Assembly: GCA_029248525.1 (NCBI GenBank)
Contig: JAQWJE010000038.1
Span: 1-64,000, forward strand
Length of the DNA: 64,000 nt
Direction: 5' to 3'
DNA from: Candidatus Binatia bacterium
Lineage (GTDB): Bacteria > Desulfobacterota > Binatia > UBA12015
Shown: in pieces, positions 6,693 to 31,370 of the stretch
Layout: the number at the start of each line of letters is the position of its first letter
How positions within the stretch are numbered: the first letter of the stretch is position 1
Program-made: the position numbers and the translations under genes
The notes under the pieces: generated by a model
Database searches by the model: none
What the model saw: the letters and a program-made list of their open reading frames with translations, nothing else
What the model was told of the DNA's origin: nothing

Positions 6693-7565
6693 CTATTTCA
6701 GTCTGATGCCGAAATTGTCTTCGTAGAGGCTGTTGTATTCTTCGTCGGACAGGTCGCCTCCCATGGCCACCCATTGCTCATCCGACATGCGACCGCGCCC
6801 GGCGCGGATGCCGTGCGCGTCTTCACCGACCGGCCAGCGCAGACGATAGTCATCGGTCTCGATGGCCTCGCGGATGGTCTCGGCGACGGTTTCGGGTTGC
6901 ACCGCAGAGACAAAGCCCGCCACGAACATCTTGCCGTTGCGTCGCATGAGGTCGACGTAGGGAGAGGTCTTGTCGTAGCGAGTGGCCGGCGCGGAATTCT
7001 CGAAGATCTTGGTCATGATCACACCAGGTTCGACATTGACGACGCGTACGCCAAACCTCGATACCTCATGCGCCAGTGCTTCGCCGGCACATTCCAGCGC
7101 CCATTTGGACGCCGAGTACGCCACCTGATTCGGCATGGCGACCAGACCCTCCATGGAGGTGATGTTGACGATGCAGCCCGAGCGTCGCTCGCGCATCGCG
7201 GGGAGGACAGCCTGAATGCAGCGAATGGCGCCGAAGTAGTTGGTTTGGAACATCGCTTCGTGCTCTGCCATGGGCGTGATTTCCAGAGGCGTCGCGCCGC
7301 CCATCCCCGCATTGTTGACGAGGACATCGATTGCCTGCGGGCCGCCGGCGGCCTCGATGGCGCCCGCGACCGAGGCGTCTTCGGTGACGTCCATTTGCAC
7401 GACGGTCACAGGCAATCCTTCGGCTGCTTCGCGCAAGGCCTCGGATTTGCCGGGATTGCGCATGCCGGCGAACACCGAGTAACCGTTTCGGGCGAGGTCT
7501 ATGGCTGTCGCCAGACCGATACCGGTACTGGTTCCTGTGACCAATGCGACTTTTTCGGTGCTCAT
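6693..7565 (-). CDS. Short-chain dehydrogenase/reductase (SDR)
   Basis: Encodes 290 residues. Classical SDR motifs are present: NAD(P)-binding TGTSTGIG near the N-terminus, NNAG, the catalytic Ser in NITSMEG and YSASK. It would oxidise or reduce an alcohol/ketone with NAD(P)H. The extended C-terminal 40 residues (acidic, ending NFGIRLK) are longer than in minimal SDRs. ATG 7565 is chosen because GGAGATATCC stands right before it; the alternative ATG at 7577 overlaps that site. The gene converges on the acyl-CoA ligase, with a short gap holding no clear terminator. Substrate unknown; the neighbourhood suggests lipid or sterol-like molecules. Confidence 0.88.
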   Translation of the reverse strand: MSTEKVALVTGTSTGIGLATAIDLARNGYSVFAGMRNPGKSEALREAAEGLPVTVVQMDVTEDASVAGAIEAAGGPQAIDVLVNNAGMGGATPLEITPMAEHEAMFQTNYFGAIRCIQAVLPAMRERRSGCIVNITSMEGLVAMPNQVAYSASKWALECAGEALAHEVSRFGVRVVNVEPGVIMTKIFENSAPATRYDKTSPYVDLMRRNGKMFVAGFVSAVQPETVAETIREAIETDDYRLRWPVGEDAHGIRAGRGRMSDEQWVAMGGDLSDEEYNSLYEDNFGIRLK

Positions 7566-7850
7566 GGATATCTCCAATCCTGTCTTTGAGGCTGTTGGAA
7601 TCGGGGGAATTTGTGATGGTTGCCAGCGCTGCCGGGGGCCATCGACTGCCCGCCTTCGCGGGCTTGTTCGGGGTTGGCGCGGACCTCGCGGTCGGCAGCC
7701 TTGGCATCCCTACCGACCGCAATACGCAATCGATCCGGGCGCACGCCGTTCGGGATTATGGGCGCGGCCTTCTCGACGCAGACCGAGGGCCGATGTTGGC
7801 GCCCGTCGGGGACTCCGTGTGCGGTTTCTGACTTCAGGGCGACGTCGCAC
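7566..7850. other. Intergenic gap of about 285 bases without a supported gene
   Basis: Open frames cross this stretch on both strands, but none has a convincing ribosome site, conserved motif or signal peptide. The GC-rich palindromic look of parts of it (for example cgcccgccttcgcgggc) suggests folded RNA or spacer DNA. It includes the leader of the SDR gene on the minus strand and whatever terminates yhbY. I see nothing else in it. Confidence 0.5.
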
Positions 7851-8144
7851 TCAAGCGAGCTCAATGCCGGGGTTGTCCGGGTGGGCGCGATAGAGAAGTA
7901 ACGTATGGCCGAGTTTCTGGGCGATCTCGCAGCCGAGGTCGGCTTCGATGGCGGCCGCGATGGCATTTTTATCCAGAGGACAGTCGCTCGAGCGCCGCAC
8001 CTTGATCAACTCATGAGCGAGCAGTTGCTCATCGATGGCGTTTTTCACCGATTCGCTGAGTCCGGACTTGCCGATCTGGACCACCGGAGGCAGTCCGTGT
8101 CCGAGTCCACGCAGTTGGCGTCGCTGTTTTCCGGTAAGCGGCAT
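7851..8144 (-). CDS. yhbY: YhbY-family RNA-binding protein (CRM domain)
   Basis: Encodes 97 residues, the standard length for YhbY. One CRM domain fills the protein: LTGKQRRQLRGLGHGLPPVV at the start, then the GxxG-type loop in QIGKSGLSESV, and ELIKVRR. Family members bind pre-50S ribosomal particles and act in ribosome assembly in the cytoplasm. The gene stands alone between an SDR and a membrane hydroxylase on the same strand. The start ATG fits the conserved beginning (MPLTGKQRR). Confidence 0.93.
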   Translation of the reverse strand: MPLTGKQRRQLRGLGHGLPPVVQIGKSGLSESVKNAIDEQLLAHELIKVRRSSDCPLDKNAIAAAIEADLGCEIAQKLGHTLLLYRAHPDNPGIELA

Positions 8145-25631: not shown

Positions 25632-25970
25632 TCAGTCGAAAATTTGGCTGCTTTCGCCGATCGAGGGGTTGTCGCCGACATCATCAAGTCCTTCGCCCGC
25701 CGGAATACCAACCGAGCCGATCGACGGAGCGTCCCCCGCATCGGGAATATTCTCACCAGCGGGAATTCCGACGGAACCGATCGAGGGCGCATCGCCGGCA
25801 TCGGGCTCGGCAATCACACCTGGGGCCGCGAGGGTCCCGTCGCGACCCATATCGCCGTCGAAGGTTCCGAATTCACCATCTTGTGCCCCAGCGAGCGGTG
25901 CCGTCAAAAAGCTTCCGGCGAACAGAACTGCTGCCAAAAGAGGAATCCAGCCAAGAAATCGAGTCTTCAT
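25632..25970 (-). CDS. Small exported protein with 20-residue repeats
   Basis: Encodes 112 residues. A signal peptide (MKTRFLGWIPLLAAVLFAG then TAPLAGA) precedes a short acidic part and two full plus one partial repeat of about 20 residues, each containing DAGDAPSIGSVGIPAGE. The two full repeats are identical over 17 residues although 13 of the 17 codons differ in their third base, so the peptide is held by selection, not by recent duplication. No known family. It converges on the TauE-type gene. Weak ribosome site (GGATAG). Confidence 0.72.
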   Translation of the reverse strand: MKTRFLGWIPLLAAVLFAGSFLTAPLAGAQDGEFGTFDGDMGRDGTLAAPGVIAEPDAGDAPSIGSVGIPAGENIPDAGDAPSIGSVGIPAGEGLDDVGDNPSIGESSQIFD

Positions 25971-26147
25971 CTATCCGGCATCTCACGCGCACCCGTCAGG
26001 AGCAAGCGTTGCCGACCACGCTCCCCACAAGGGTCCACCAGCTTTGTCGAAGATCGGCGTTGCTGTTAGAAATTATTGGTGCCTGTTGCTCAAAGTTGCC
26101 TGAAGCCTCTCCTGTTTTCGCGTCCCGTCGCTCTCGACCCCGGTCCT

Positions 26148-26903
26148 ATGCTCCGGGCTCGGGATTTGCTGGGGAAGATTGCGCTTTCATCTTGTGCGCT
26201 ATGCCTGAGCGGCCTTCTTCTCGCTCTGCCCGCCGGGGCGGAGGACTCGATCGCGGCGGATGTTGCCAGTCCTGCAACTGCTCCTGCCGTTCAACCTGCC
26301 GCTCAACCTGCCGCCAAACCTGCGGCTGGTTCCGCGGGAGATATGGCGGTTGCACCGCCTGCCGGCTCGCGGGTTGTTGTCGTCGAGGCGTTCAATACCG
26401 ACCTCCTCGACCTTCTGCGAAATTCCGATTCGCTGGACCAGAAGGGGCGCAGCGCAGCGCTGCAACCTTCGCTGCAGGAAAACTTTGATCTCGGGTTCAT
26501 GGCACAGAAAGTTCTGGGTCGTGGTTGGAAGCAGCTCACCCCCGAGCAACAGGCGATTTGGCGGGAGAGCTTTGCCGGGCTGATGACCGAGAACTACGCC
26601 GGGAGATTTGTCGGTTGGTCCGAGCAATCCTTTACCACCGTCGAGGAGTCCGAGGCGGGGCATGGAACTTTTCTGGTCCGAACCATATTGCACGTCCCCG
26701 GAGATGATGATGTCGCTCTGGACTATCGGCTTCGCGAAACTCCCGAGGGCTGGCGCGTGATCGACGTCTTCCTCAACGGCACTGTCAGTGAGCTGGCTTT
26801 GCGACGTGCGGAGTACTCCGGAGTTCTTAAAAGAGATGGTTTTGATGCGTTGATCGCGGCGGTTGACGGCAAACGCGATGAACTCGCGGCCTCCGCTCCC
26901 TAG
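26148..26903 (+). CDS. mlaC: MlaC/Ttg2D-family periplasmic lipid-binding protein (HpnM-like)
   Basis: Encodes 251 residues. MlaC proteins shuttle phospholipid between the outer-membrane MlaA complex and an inner-membrane MCE transporter; HpnM is the version near hopanoid genes. A signal peptide (IALSSCALCLSGLLLALPAGA) and an Ala/Pro-rich spacer precede the fold. Family marks include NFDLGFMAQKVLGRGWKQLT, FAGLMTENYAGRFVGW and GWRVIDVFLNGTVSELAL-type segments. ATG 26148 gives a proper signal peptide; no strong ribosome site is seen. The 3' end overlaps the convergent mlaA gene by 4 bases. The nearby HpnN-like transporter supports a lipid-trafficking role. Confidence 0.86.
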   Translation: MLRARDLLGKIALSSCALCLSGLLLALPAGAEDSIAADVASPATAPAVQPAAQPAAKPAAGSAGDMAVAPPAGSRVVVVEAFNTDLLDLLRNSDSLDQKGRSAALQPSLQENFDLGFMAQKVLGRGWKQLTPEQQAIWRESFAGLMTENYAGRFVGWSEQSFTTVEESEAGHGTFLVRTILHVPGDDDVALDYRLRETPEGWRVIDVFLNGTVSELALRRAEYSGVLKRDGFDALIAAVDGKRDELAASAP

Positions 26904-27742
26904 CGGTGGTCTTCGCGGCGTGACCAGATAGCCGACTCACGATCCTGGCCGTAGGCGTTGCGCAGCGACGTGTAGTAATCGATCGAAGATTCCTCCAGAG
27001 CGCTCATGTTTCGTGCGTGACGTTCGCGCAAGGCGATGCCGTGCCCGGTGCCCTGAAAAGTCGTGTAGACGATATACTCGGTGGGGCCGAGGAGCCAGAA
27101 GGTTGGCCGCAGAAACAGATCAACGATCAGGCCGGTCGAATCCCGCAGGTTGTTCGGCCCCATCAGGGGGAGAACGACATATGGGCCCGATGGTACCCCG
27201 GCGAGAGCCATGGTCTGTCCGAAGTCCGAGTTATGACCGTCCATGTCGAAAATGACGCGCGCGGGATCGAAAAGTCCGGCGACTCCGATGGTTGTATTGA
27301 CCAGGAATCGGGAGAATGTGATCGCAGCATCGTCCCATTCGCGTTGGAGAAGATCGTTGACAAAGGTTGCCGGCTCGCCGAGATTTTCGAAAAAATTCAT
27401 CACGGACAGCTTCGCCTGCTTCGGGAGGCTCTGCCCGTAGACGTTCGTTACCGGTCGCAGAAACCAGGTGTCCATGCCCTTGTTGAGTTGATGCGTTCGG
27501 CGATTCACGGATTCCCATGGATCAGGGACGTCCTGGCTGCTGGTCGCATCTTCGGGCCAGTCCTCATCGAAGAGCGGGTCGTATTCCGTATCCGGTGCGG
27601 TGGCCGCGCCCGCGGGAGCCGCCGATGGAACAGTGGACGGTTCACACGCTGCACGTTTCGGAGCACTGAACGTACCGGCGACGATGATCATCGTGAGCAG
27701 TATCAGTCGCCCGAATGGAGTTTTTCTCGCGATCACTCCCAA
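26900..27742 (-). CDS. mlaA: MlaA/VacJ-family outer-membrane lipoprotein
   Basis: Encodes 280 residues. MlaA is a ring-like outer-membrane protein that removes phospholipid from the outer leaflet and hands it to MlaC. Family motifs are strong: DPWESVNRRTHQLNKGMDTW, RPVTNVYGQSLPKQAK, NFFENLGEPATFVNDLLQ, TTIGVAGLFDPA, DFGQTMALAGVPSGPYVVLP. An N-terminal hydrophobic segment (LILLTMIIVAGTFSA) ends in KRAAC, a possible lipobox with weak fit. The start is uncertain (TTG 27742 or GTG 27736). It converges on mlaC and diverges from hpnN. Confidence 0.9.
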   Translation of the reverse strand: MGVIARKTPFGRLILLTMIIVAGTFSAPKRAACEPSTVPSAAPAGAATAPDTEYDPLFDEDWPEDATSSQDVPDPWESVNRRTHQLNKGMDTWFLRPVTNVYGQSLPKQAKLSVMNFFENLGEPATFVNDLLQREWDDAAITFSRFLVNTTIGVAGLFDPARVIFDMDGHNSDFGQTMALAGVPSGPYVVLPLMGPNNLRDSTGLIVDLFLRPTFWLLGPTEYIVYTTFQGTGHGIALRERHARNMSALEESSIDYYTSLRNAYGQDRESAIWSRREDHR

Positions 27743-27819
27743 AGCTTAGGGGTTGTTCGGGAGTGAATCCATAGGCAGCAGAACCGGCCAAGCTGTCGGC
27801 GGCATGCTAGGGTTCGACC

Positions 27820-30486
27820 GTGCAAGCGGAACAGGGCAGATTTCAAAGGGGTCTTTTGGCGTGGGCTGACGGGGTCACGCGTCACGCGCGGAGCATCGTT
27901 TGGGGCAATCTGGCTTTGAGCCTGATTCTTGCGGCCTATGCGGCCATGAACCTGGGGGTGAATGCGGACAATATGCGCCTGCTGGATCCGGATTTACCCT
28001 TCCAGCAAGCCGCAGCCGGTTTTCAGGAGAATTTCAGTTCCCTCGATGATTCTCTCCTGATCGTGATCGACGCTCGCTCGGGCACGCAGGCGCAGGAGAG
28101 CGCCGATCTCCTAGCGGCCGCACTCGCCGAGCAGACGGACCTCTTCACGGGCGTCTTCGAACCGGGTTCCGGAGGTTTTTTCGAGCGCCACGGGCTGCTC
28201 TATCGATCACCCGACGACCTCGAGGCTTTCGCGGACCAGATGGCCGCCTACCAGCCAATACTTGCAGAACTCTCGCGTGATCCCAGCCTGATGAATCTGA
28301 CCTCCATGCTCGAGCGCGGGTTTGCGGAGGGCGTCGGGGGGGACGAATCAGCGACCGAATTCTCGGGGATCTTCGATCGTATCGGGGATGCTTCGGTCGA
28401 GGTCTTTGCGGAGTACCCGGTCGCCGTTTCCTGGCAGGATCTGATGATGGAAGGCTCGGCGATCGACCCGGGCTCCCGGCGGGTGGTCATCGCCGAGCCG
28501 ATTCTTGATTTTGAGGCAGTTCTCGCGGCCTCCCCCGCGATGGAGTCCATCCGTAGCACCGCGCAGGATCTGGGACTTGTGGCCGACCGTGGGATCGAGT
28601 TGCGGATTACGGGCAACCCCGCGCTGAGTGTCGAGGAAATGATCGGTCTTTTCTGGGACGTGGGTGTCTCGGGAATTCTCTCGTTCATGATCGTTCTCGT
28701 GGCGATCTTTTTTGCTTTTGGCTCGGCCCGCCTTTCGCTGGCTGCCGGGGCTACTCTGGTGGTCGGGTTGGTGTGGACCGCGGCCTTCGCTGCGGCGACG
28801 GTTGGTGCGCTCAATCTTATTTCGATCGCATTTGCGGTCTTGTTCATCGGTCTGGGCGTCGACTTTTCAATTCATCTGGGAATGCATTTTGTCGCGGGGC
28901 TTCGCGCGGGGTTGCGGCCGGGAGAGGCTTTGCAGGGCGCTGGTCGGGAGGTCGGGAGTTCATTGATCCTGTGTACCTTCACCACCGCGATCGGGTTCTA
29001 TTCCTTCGTGCCGACCGATTATTTGGGCGTGGCCGAATTGGGCCTGATCTCGGGCACGGGGATGTTTGTGATTCTGATCCAGACCGTGACGTTCTTTCCC
29101 GCGCTCTCCACACTTCTTGTGGGTAGTCGTGGCAAGGAATTGTTCGCCAAGACTTCGCGATTCCAATTCCGAGTGCCTGCGGCTGTGACCAATCGACCGG
29201 AGGTGGTGGTCTCGTTGGCACTTCTTCTGGGAATTGTCGGAGTCTTCCTCGCGCCCGGGGCCCGGTTCGATTCGGATGTTGTGGAGATGCGCGATCCGCG
29301 CACGGAATCAGTGGAGGCCTTCAAGGATTTGCTTGAAGACCCCCGGACCTCCCCGTGGTATATCGATGCCGTCGCCGATAACCTCGAGGAAGCCGAAGTC
29401 CTCGCAGCGCGTTTTGAAGAGCTCCCGGAAGTCTCCGAAGCGATTACCGTGCGCGCCTATGTACCCGAAGATCAAACCGAGAAGCTCGAAATTCTGGCGG
29501 ACACCTCGATGCTCTTCGACGTGCCGCGCTCGGACCGGATTGCCTCGCAGGGCCCGACGGTAGAAGAACAGATTGCCGCAATCCGCGATCTGCAGCGACT
29601 GTTGACCGAAAGCACGGTCGTGCAGGGTGACTCGACGCTCGCACTTTCGGGCGCCAAGCTGAATGCCATGCTCGGCGAATTTCTCGCAAAGGTGGGCAAC
29701 TCGCCAGATCCGACAGAGGCGGTCAACCGATTCGAAGAGCTTCTTCTCGGAAGCTTCCCGGATCAATTTCGCCGCCTGCAACTGGCACTCGATCCCGACG
29801 AGGTCCGTCTGGAAACGCTCCCCGCAAATTTGCGTGAGCGCATGCTCGCGCCCAACGGCAAGGCAAGGGTGCAGGTCTTTCCGAGCGGCAATTTGGGGGA
29901 AGGCGATGCGCGTGAGATTTTCGTGGATGCGATCCGGCAAGTCCAGCCCGACGCGACGGGCGTGGCTGTCAATCTCATCGAGTTTGGTAGAGCTACGGCG
30001 CGTTCGTTGGTGGAAGCGCTTTCCCTGGCCCTGATTCTGATTACCGTCCTTCTCCTGCTGATCTGGCGTAAACCGCTCGACGCGGCTCTGGTGCTCTTGC
30101 CCCTGATTCTGGCGGGTGTGATGACGGGTGCGGCGATGGTCGTCCTCGACCGAGCGTTCAACTTTGCCAATGTGATTGTTCTGCCGCTGTTGCTCGGGAT
30201 CGGGGTTGATAGTGGCGTGCATCTCGTGCACCGGGCGCGCGAAGCGGGGCGCGGCAAGCCGCTCCTGGAGTCGGTCACGGCGCAGGCTGTTTTCTGGAGT
30301 GCTCTGACGACGATTGTCAGTTTTGGCAGCCTGGCTCTCTCCGCACACCGTGGGATCGCGAGTCTTGGCTTGCTTCTGGTGGTCGGTTTGACGATCACGG
30401 TGCTGGCAAATCTGATTCTACTGCCGGCATTGGTGGTGCTGGTACAACGGCGAGGGTACCTTCTCCCTCCAGCGCAACGAAGCTGA
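27820..30486 (+). CDS. hpnN: HpnN-like MMPL/RND-superfamily transporter
   Basis: Encodes 888 residues. HpnN-type RND proteins move hopanoids to the outer membrane. Two sets of about six hydrophobic segments flank large periplasmic loops (residues about 45-270 and 490-710). The conserved NADNMRLLDPDLPFQ after the first helix and the paired GLGVDFSIHL (residues about 345) and GIGVDSGVHL (about 800) signatures fit MMPL/HpnN. Start is GTG 27820 after AGGG. Neighbouring MlaC and MlaA-type genes agree with lipid export. Other hopanoid genes are not in the window. Confidence 0.85.
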   Translation: MQAEQGRFQRGLLAWADGVTRHARSIVWGNLALSLILAAYAAMNLGVNADNMRLLDPDLPFQQAAAGFQENFSSLDDSLLIVIDARSGTQAQESADLLAAALAEQTDLFTGVFEPGSGGFFERHGLLYRSPDDLEAFADQMAAYQPILAELSRDPSLMNLTSMLERGFAEGVGGDESATEFSGIFDRIGDASVEVFAEYPVAVSWQDLMMEGSAIDPGSRRVVIAEPILDFEAVLAASPAMESIRSTAQDLGLVADRGIELRITGNPALSVEEMIGLFWDVGVSGILSFMIVLVAIFFAFGSARLSLAAGATLVVGLVWTAAFAAATVGALNLISIAFAVLFIGLGVDFSIHLGMHFVAGLRAGLRPGEALQGAGREVGSSLILCTFTTAIGFYSFVPTDYLGVAELGLISGTGMFVILIQTVTFFPALSTLLVGSRGKELFAKTSRFQFRVPAAVTNRPEVVVSLALLLGIVGVFLAPGARFDSDVVEMRDPRTESVEAFKDLLEDPRTSPWYIDAVADNLEEAEVLAARFEELPEVSEAITVRAYVPEDQTEKLEILADTSMLFDVPRSDRIASQGPTVEEQIAAIRDLQRLLTESTVVQGDSTLALSGAKLNAMLGEFLAKVGNSPDPTEAVNRFEELLLGSFPDQFRRLQLALDPDEVRLETLPANLRERMLAPNGKARVQVFPSGNLGEGDAREIFVDAIRQVQPDATGVAVNLIEFGRATARSLVEALSLALILITVLLLLIWRKPLDAALVLLPLILAGVMTGAAMVVLDRAFNFANVIVLPLLLGIGVDSGVHLVHRAREAGRGKPLLESVTAQAVFWSALTTIVSFGSLALSAHRGIASLGLLLVVGLTITVLANLILLPALVVLVQRRGYLLPPAQRS

Positions 30487-30494
30487 GTGATTTT

Positions 30495-31370
30495 ATGGTG
30501 AAACAAAAAAAACAGAAACCGAGCAACACGGACGGGAAGTCGAAGGGTAAGGCCAAACGGAAAACGATGGCCTCACAGGTCGACTTGCTGGAACTGTACG
30601 AGAATTCGGTCATGGCACCGGACGAGGATTGCGCCTTTTTCGACGAGCTTTATCTGAAGTTGCGGGGTGCAAAGCCGGAAGTCTTGCGAGAGGATTTCTG
30701 CGGCACGGCAAAAATTGCCACCGCCTGGTGCGAGGCGGATGAGACTCGCCGAGCCATTGGTGTGGACCTCGACCAGCCAACTTTGGAATGGGGTCGCGAG
30801 CGCAATGTGGTGCCCTCGACGGCCGCCGACCGAATCGAGTTGGTCCATGGGAATGTTCTGGATCCGCTGACGACGAAAGCGGATATCACCTGCGCCAATA
30901 ACTTCAGTTATTGCATCTTCAAGAAGCGGGCAGAGCTCAAGGCTTATCTGGCGGCCGCTTTCGAGGGCTTGCGCTCCGACGGGCTGATCTTTCTGGAGAT
31001 CTACGGCGGACTCGATGCCATGAAGGAGTGCGAGGAGGAGCGCGATCTGGACGATATGGTCTATATCTGGGATCAGCACTCGTTCGATCCGCTGACCCAT
31101 GAGACCCTCTGCTACATCCACTACCAGTTTCCGGACGGCTCAAAGCGAAAAAAAGCGTTCACCTACGACTGGCGCTTATGGACCATTCCCGAACTACGAG
31201 ATCTCCTCGAAGAGGTCGGCTTTGCGGAAGTGCGGCTGTATTGGGAGGGGCTTGAGGAAGAGGCCGACGACGATGGCCTCTATTATGGTAACGGGGAGTA
31301 TGAAGACGTCACAACGGTCGCTGTCGAGCAGCAAGAGACCTACCTCGTTTACGTGGTCGGACTTAAATAG
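30495..31370 (+). CDS. Class I SAM-dependent methyltransferase
   Basis: Encodes 291 residues. An unusual lysine-rich N-terminus (about 25 residues, KQKKQKPSNTDGKSKGK) precedes the domain. SAM site: VLREDFCGTAKIATAWCE with AIGVDLDQPTLEWGRER, later NNFSYCIFKKR and FLEIYGG. The REDFCGT motif is typical of a group of methyltransferases of unknown substrate found in proteobacteria and plants. It begins 8 bases after hpnN, so is probably co-transcribed, and may modify a lipid or sugar. C-terminus acidic with EEADDDGLYYGNGEYED. Confidence 0.85.
   Translation: MVKQKKQKPSNTDGKSKGKAKRKTMASQVDLLELYENSVMAPDEDCAFFDELYLKLRGAKPEVLREDFCGTAKIATAWCEADETRRAIGVDLDQPTLEWGRERNVVPSTAADRIELVHGNVLDPLTTKADITCANNFSYCIFKKRAELKAYLAAAFEGLRSDGLIFLEIYGGLDAMKECEEERDLDDMVYIWDQHSFDPLTHETLCYIHYQFPDGSKRKKAFTYDWRLWTIPELRDLLEEVGFAEVRLYWEGLEEEADDDGLYYGNGEYEDVTTVAVEQQETYLVYVVGLK

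Follow-up and report, generated by a model that had tools for sequence, protein, structure and literature searches.

An open reading frame of low complexity at positions 25632-25970 of the 64,000-nucleotide stretch of Candidatus Binatia DNA analysed here (the window) encodes a small protein with short internal repeats. The question raised by this locus is whether this protein is real and selected and, if so, what part of the repeat is conserved and which function it may serve.

An exported protein encoded on the minus strand

The open reading frame exists and lies on the minus strand, which an earlier note on this DNA left unstated. It starts with ATG at 25970, ends with TGA at 25634-25632 and encodes 112 amino acid residues, and its layout is shared by its homologues. 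Residues 1-29 (25884-25970, minus strand) read as a signal peptide, MKTRFLGWIPLLAAVLFAGSFLTAPLAGA, with Q as the first residue after the cleavage site. This region contains a hydrophobic stretch and a cleavage-type site, A-G-A-Q, of which AQ is invariant in all seven aligned homologues, and residues 5-22 within it form the sole confident helix of the structure model. The mature proteins of the seven homologues are 75-116 residues in length, have a pI of ~4.1, and contain neither Cys nor Lys. The test for a lipoprotein is accordingly negative, with no lipobox Cys at the cleavage site and the seven mature forms being devoid of Cys. The signal-type N-terminus, which is present in the window protein and in its homologues, supports the exported product that the earlier note had proposed.

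The plus strand contains an open reading frame of 144 codons (25669-26103), which runs uninterrupted opposite the repeats of the gene. That this open and repetitive frame is the true gene is extremely improbable. The third positions of both strands face each other in this arrangement, so that the synonymous changes alter almost nothing in the translation of either strand and the codon argument alone is strand-blind. However, two of the seven homologues (L004 and L005) have stop codons in the antisense frame. The sense frame is open in all seven and starts in each with a signal-type N-terminus, the start codon of one of them (L007) being tentative. An antisense gene is therefore rejected, and the gene lies in the minus-strand frame. 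The antisense frame is open and repetitive because the third positions of the two strands face each other.

Purifying selection on the repeat core

The protein contains two full copies of a 17-residue repeat, DAGDAPSIGSVGIPAGE, at residues 57-73 (25752-25802, minus strand) and 77-93 (25692-25742, minus strand), and a third, partial copy, DVGDNPSIGE, at residues 97-106 (25653-25682, minus strand). The spacing of the three copies is exactly 60 nucleotides. As the earlier note had stated, the two full copies are identical in protein and diverged in codons: a single synonymous third-position change is seen in 13 of the 17 codons, such that 38 of the 51 nucleotides are identical.

Only 28% of all possible single-base changes in one copy are synonymous, and the chance that 13 of 13 neutral changes are all synonymous is ~7e-8. 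When 13 neutral changes were simulated in 20,000 trials, the copies differed by 7.8 amino acids on average and by 3 at the minimum, and the number of differences was never zero. Two independent draws from the local codon usage are expected to differ at 10.9 of 17 codons, as compared to the 13 observed (P for at least 13, 0.21). This result indicates that the synonymous difference is at the level of saturation, so that an extra pressure to diversify the codons is unnecessary; diversification past saturation, by which recombination between the repeats would be avoided, was considered and set aside as superfluous. The pS value of the identical copies, 0.84, is comparable to that of the neighbouring methyltransferase gene, which shows pS values of 0.69-0.82 and amino acid identities of 56-60% when this genus is compared with others. 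At the level of identity of the methyltransferase, 17 matches out of 17 have a probability of ~1e-4, a value that applies to a 17-mer chosen after the fact.

The repeats were also compared across relatives, using 25 units from seven proteins (the seven distinct sequences) of three genera, which are designated g1, g5 and g6. The proteins carry two to five copies of the motif each. P6 and G9 are present in all 25 units, S7 is Ser in 24 and Thr in the other one, and I8 is Ile in 22 and Val in the others. G3 is found in 23 units, A2 in 22, and D4 and E10 in 18 each. The core Ser is encoded by TCN in 17 units and by AGC in seven, and these codons are not interconvertible by one synonymous step, which supports selection on the Ser residue. 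After position 10 the sequence tracks the genus, reading SVGIPAGE in g1, EDSVEMGP in g5 and ETSRRFMNDP in much of g6, and the SVGIPAGE half of the 17-mer is confined to the window species. When the nine-residue core is compared within genes, over all seven genes, pS is 0.59 and pN is 0.27, indicating that the copies of the relatives are mostly less alike than copies 1 and 2 of the window gene.

The synonymous-only divergence of the window copies and the invariance of the core in relatives indicate that selection on the peptide is purifying, in agreement with the earlier note. Its claim that the whole 17-mer is functional and selected holds for the AGDxPSIG(E) half, which recurs in relatives, but not for the SVGIPAGE half, which is replaced in g5 and g6. 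As judged from these sequences, the AGDxPSIG(E) core, rather than the full 17-mer, is the conserved functional unit. Thus, the 17-mer of the window represents the conserved core together with a linker that became the same in the two copies in the window lineage and was kept thereafter.

The composition of the units bears on the possibility that the protein is an acidic repeat protein that binds metal or a surface, with D-x-G-D loops that bind Ca2+ or decorate the envelope. The mature protein is strongly acidic, and an acidic residue (D or E) occupies position 4 in 21 of the 25 units, which favours this possibility. However, P-S-I-G is better conserved than the acidic positions, position 1 being Ser in eight units and Asp in 11, and no known calcium-binding repeat family is matched in Pfam. 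Such a binding function is therefore unlikely.

A lineage-restricted family at a shared locus

The window protein and six homologues each combine a signal peptide with two or more downstream AGDxPSIG units at intervals of ~18-22 residues. A whole-genome search of the taxonomic family detects the gene in eight of 14 genomes and three of six genera, the carriers being two g1 genomes of one species, in which the gene is identical, both g5 genomes and all four g6 genomes. The gene is not found by this search in g2, g3 and g4, and an inspection of the sites beside mlaC or the methyltransferase gene in these genera, in which signal peptides were screened by a crude hydrophobicity rule, detects no PSIG-type exported open reading frame. 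Because the gene is not found in half of the genera of the family, it is non-essential to the group. The earlier note had taken freely varying repeats in homologues, or the absence of the gene from close relatives, as evidence against its proposal. The linkers do vary freely and the gene was not found in three of six genera, but the PSIG core does not vary.

When 148 genomes of the class are searched with a profile of the seven proteins, nothing is detected outside the three genera. The best matches from 395 sampled genomes of the phylum are weak (E of 0.004 to 0.1), and none of their loci has a recognisable AGDxPSIG run. A scan of the genomes of 85,000 species for close relatives gives a single contig, DLYX01000176.1, from the metagenome-assembled 'Deltaproteobacteria bacterium' UBA12015, in which the gene is identical in DNA. 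The window protein matches no family in Pfam or NCBIfam, even at E≤1, and no relatives of the repeat protein are found among PDB sequences, plasmids, phages and viral contigs. The earlier statement that the protein belongs to no known family is therefore borne out in Pfam, NCBIfam and PDB sequences; a mobile or phage origin was also considered and is rejected, because viral contigs, phages and plasmids give no match. A literature search for the motif returned nothing relevant. These proteins constitute a genuine, narrowly distributed family of exported repeat proteins, previously uncatalogued in the libraries searched. They resemble orphan secreted proteins of low complexity or with short repeats in that they are small, carry a signal peptide and variable tandem repeats, are biased in composition and are narrow in distribution, the window protein differing from such proteins in that it matches no catalogued family.

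The repeat gene of the window is divergent from an mlaC-type gene (26148-26903, plus strand; Pfam MlaC, E=2.3e-33), the start of which was chosen by eye within the open reading frame 26076-26903. This gene is followed by an mlaA-type gene (26900-27742, minus strand; Pfam MlaA, E=2e-61), a neighbour that is kept in g5. A gene for a large MMPL-family transporter (888 amino acid residues, plus strand) groups with these two genes, and the region 26148-30486 is probably an envelope lipid-transport locus that adjoins the repeat gene. A SAM-methyltransferase-like gene (30495-31370, plus strand), assigned from weak Pfam matches below the cut-off, is the neighbour that is most often common to relatives; it occurs in five of the family's six genera and frequently lies next to the repeat gene.

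The order and orientation of these genes in one g5 genome (G008; locus L024) are as in the window, with the repeat gene pointing left, mlaC right and mlaA left, and the methyltransferase gene farther on, pointing right, except that an additional MMPL-type gene separates mlaA from the methyltransferase gene in the window. In the other g5 genome (L026), mlaA and the methyltransferase gene are present and mlaC is absent. In g6, the methyltransferase gene is adjacent and divergent to the repeat gene in three of four genomes and is located ~6 kb away in the fourth. The shared locus and the signal-peptide architecture make common descent of these proteins much likelier than convergence. In L024 the mlaC reading frame (6764-7999, minus strand) is open through the antisense strand of the repeat gene, and automatic annotation of this site could yield an MlaC with an N-terminal extension (412 amino acid residues) and overlook the repeat gene.

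The neighbourhood in g6 also bears on the possibility that the repeats are glycosylation acceptors, in which a membrane glycosyltransferase would modify the invariant Ser/Thr of P-[ST]-[IV]-G. Thr is the only replacement seen at the core Ser, and a gene for a PMT_2/Alg9-like glycosyltransferase is located downstream of the repeat gene on the same strand in all four g6 genomes (L025, 2717-4336; L027, 2648-4030; L028, 5471-6862; L029, 4105-5493), directly downstream in two of them and behind an intervening amidohydrolase gene in L027 and L029. However, close relatives of this glycosyltransferase are absent from g1 and g5, both of which carry the repeat protein, and PMT_2 genes are so numerous in all these genomes that a chance neighbourhood is plausible. 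Given this restriction of its close relatives to g6, the glycosyltransferase is rejected as a partner conserved with the repeat protein, and a role of the repeats as glycosylation acceptors is very unlikely.

Proposed role of the repeat units

The reading preferred here, which is given a little less than an even chance, is that the protein is a Sec-exported, acidic, flexible and mostly unstructured string, in which short linear motifs are separated by spacers and recognised by a partner. The protein would be exported via Sec and remain mostly unstructured, each [D/S]AGDxPSIG[E] copy would act as a functional unit, and a periplasmic or cell-surface partner would probably recognise these copies. 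The linkers between the cores, of roughly 8-12 residues, would serve as spacers and change from genus to genus. The AlphaFold2 model, which was calculated from a single sequence, contains no sizeable element past the signal helix (mean pLDDT 59, pTM 0.21). A single-sequence model of such low confidence fits disorder in solution and does not prove it.

The identical copies and the signal peptide in one protein may alternatively suggest a multi-copy precursor, which is exported and cut into several short signal peptides. Multi-copy peptide pheromone precursors, such as that of yeast alpha-factor, likewise contain a repeated peptide in an exported precursor. However, the PSIG-repeat protein differs from them in that processing sites are not found between the copies and the copies are unlike in most relatives. 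No protease site recurs between the units in the window species and no basic residues are present there; Lys is absent from the mature proteins, which contain at most one Arg in g1, g5 and one g6 member; and recognised genes for processing or import are absent from the adjacent positions. A precursor of released peptides is less likely because a recurring cleavage site is missing between the window units, and this possibility is regarded as decidedly unlikely. The earlier note had suggested either a secreted binding scaffold or a signal. The scaffold reading fits better, because cleavage sites between the window units do not recur, on sequence evidence that could accommodate either.

A more specific version of the motif-carrier reading, also decidedly unlikely, is that the PSIG units represent a new recognition or modification motif of the periplasm or cell surface, repeated along an exported carrier that is disordered, and possibly either O-glycosylated at the invariant Ser/Thr or read by an envelope partner that is dedicated to them and linked to the Mla lipid-transport neighbourhood.

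These results indicate that the repeats of a single genome, together with a few relatives, suffice to identify a low-complexity open reading frame without a known family as a real protein under selection. The conserved core of the repeat protein is now defined and hence testable. The biology of this protein would matter if the motif is a site of modification or recognition; otherwise, it would be one further lineage-restricted exported protein of an uncultivated group.
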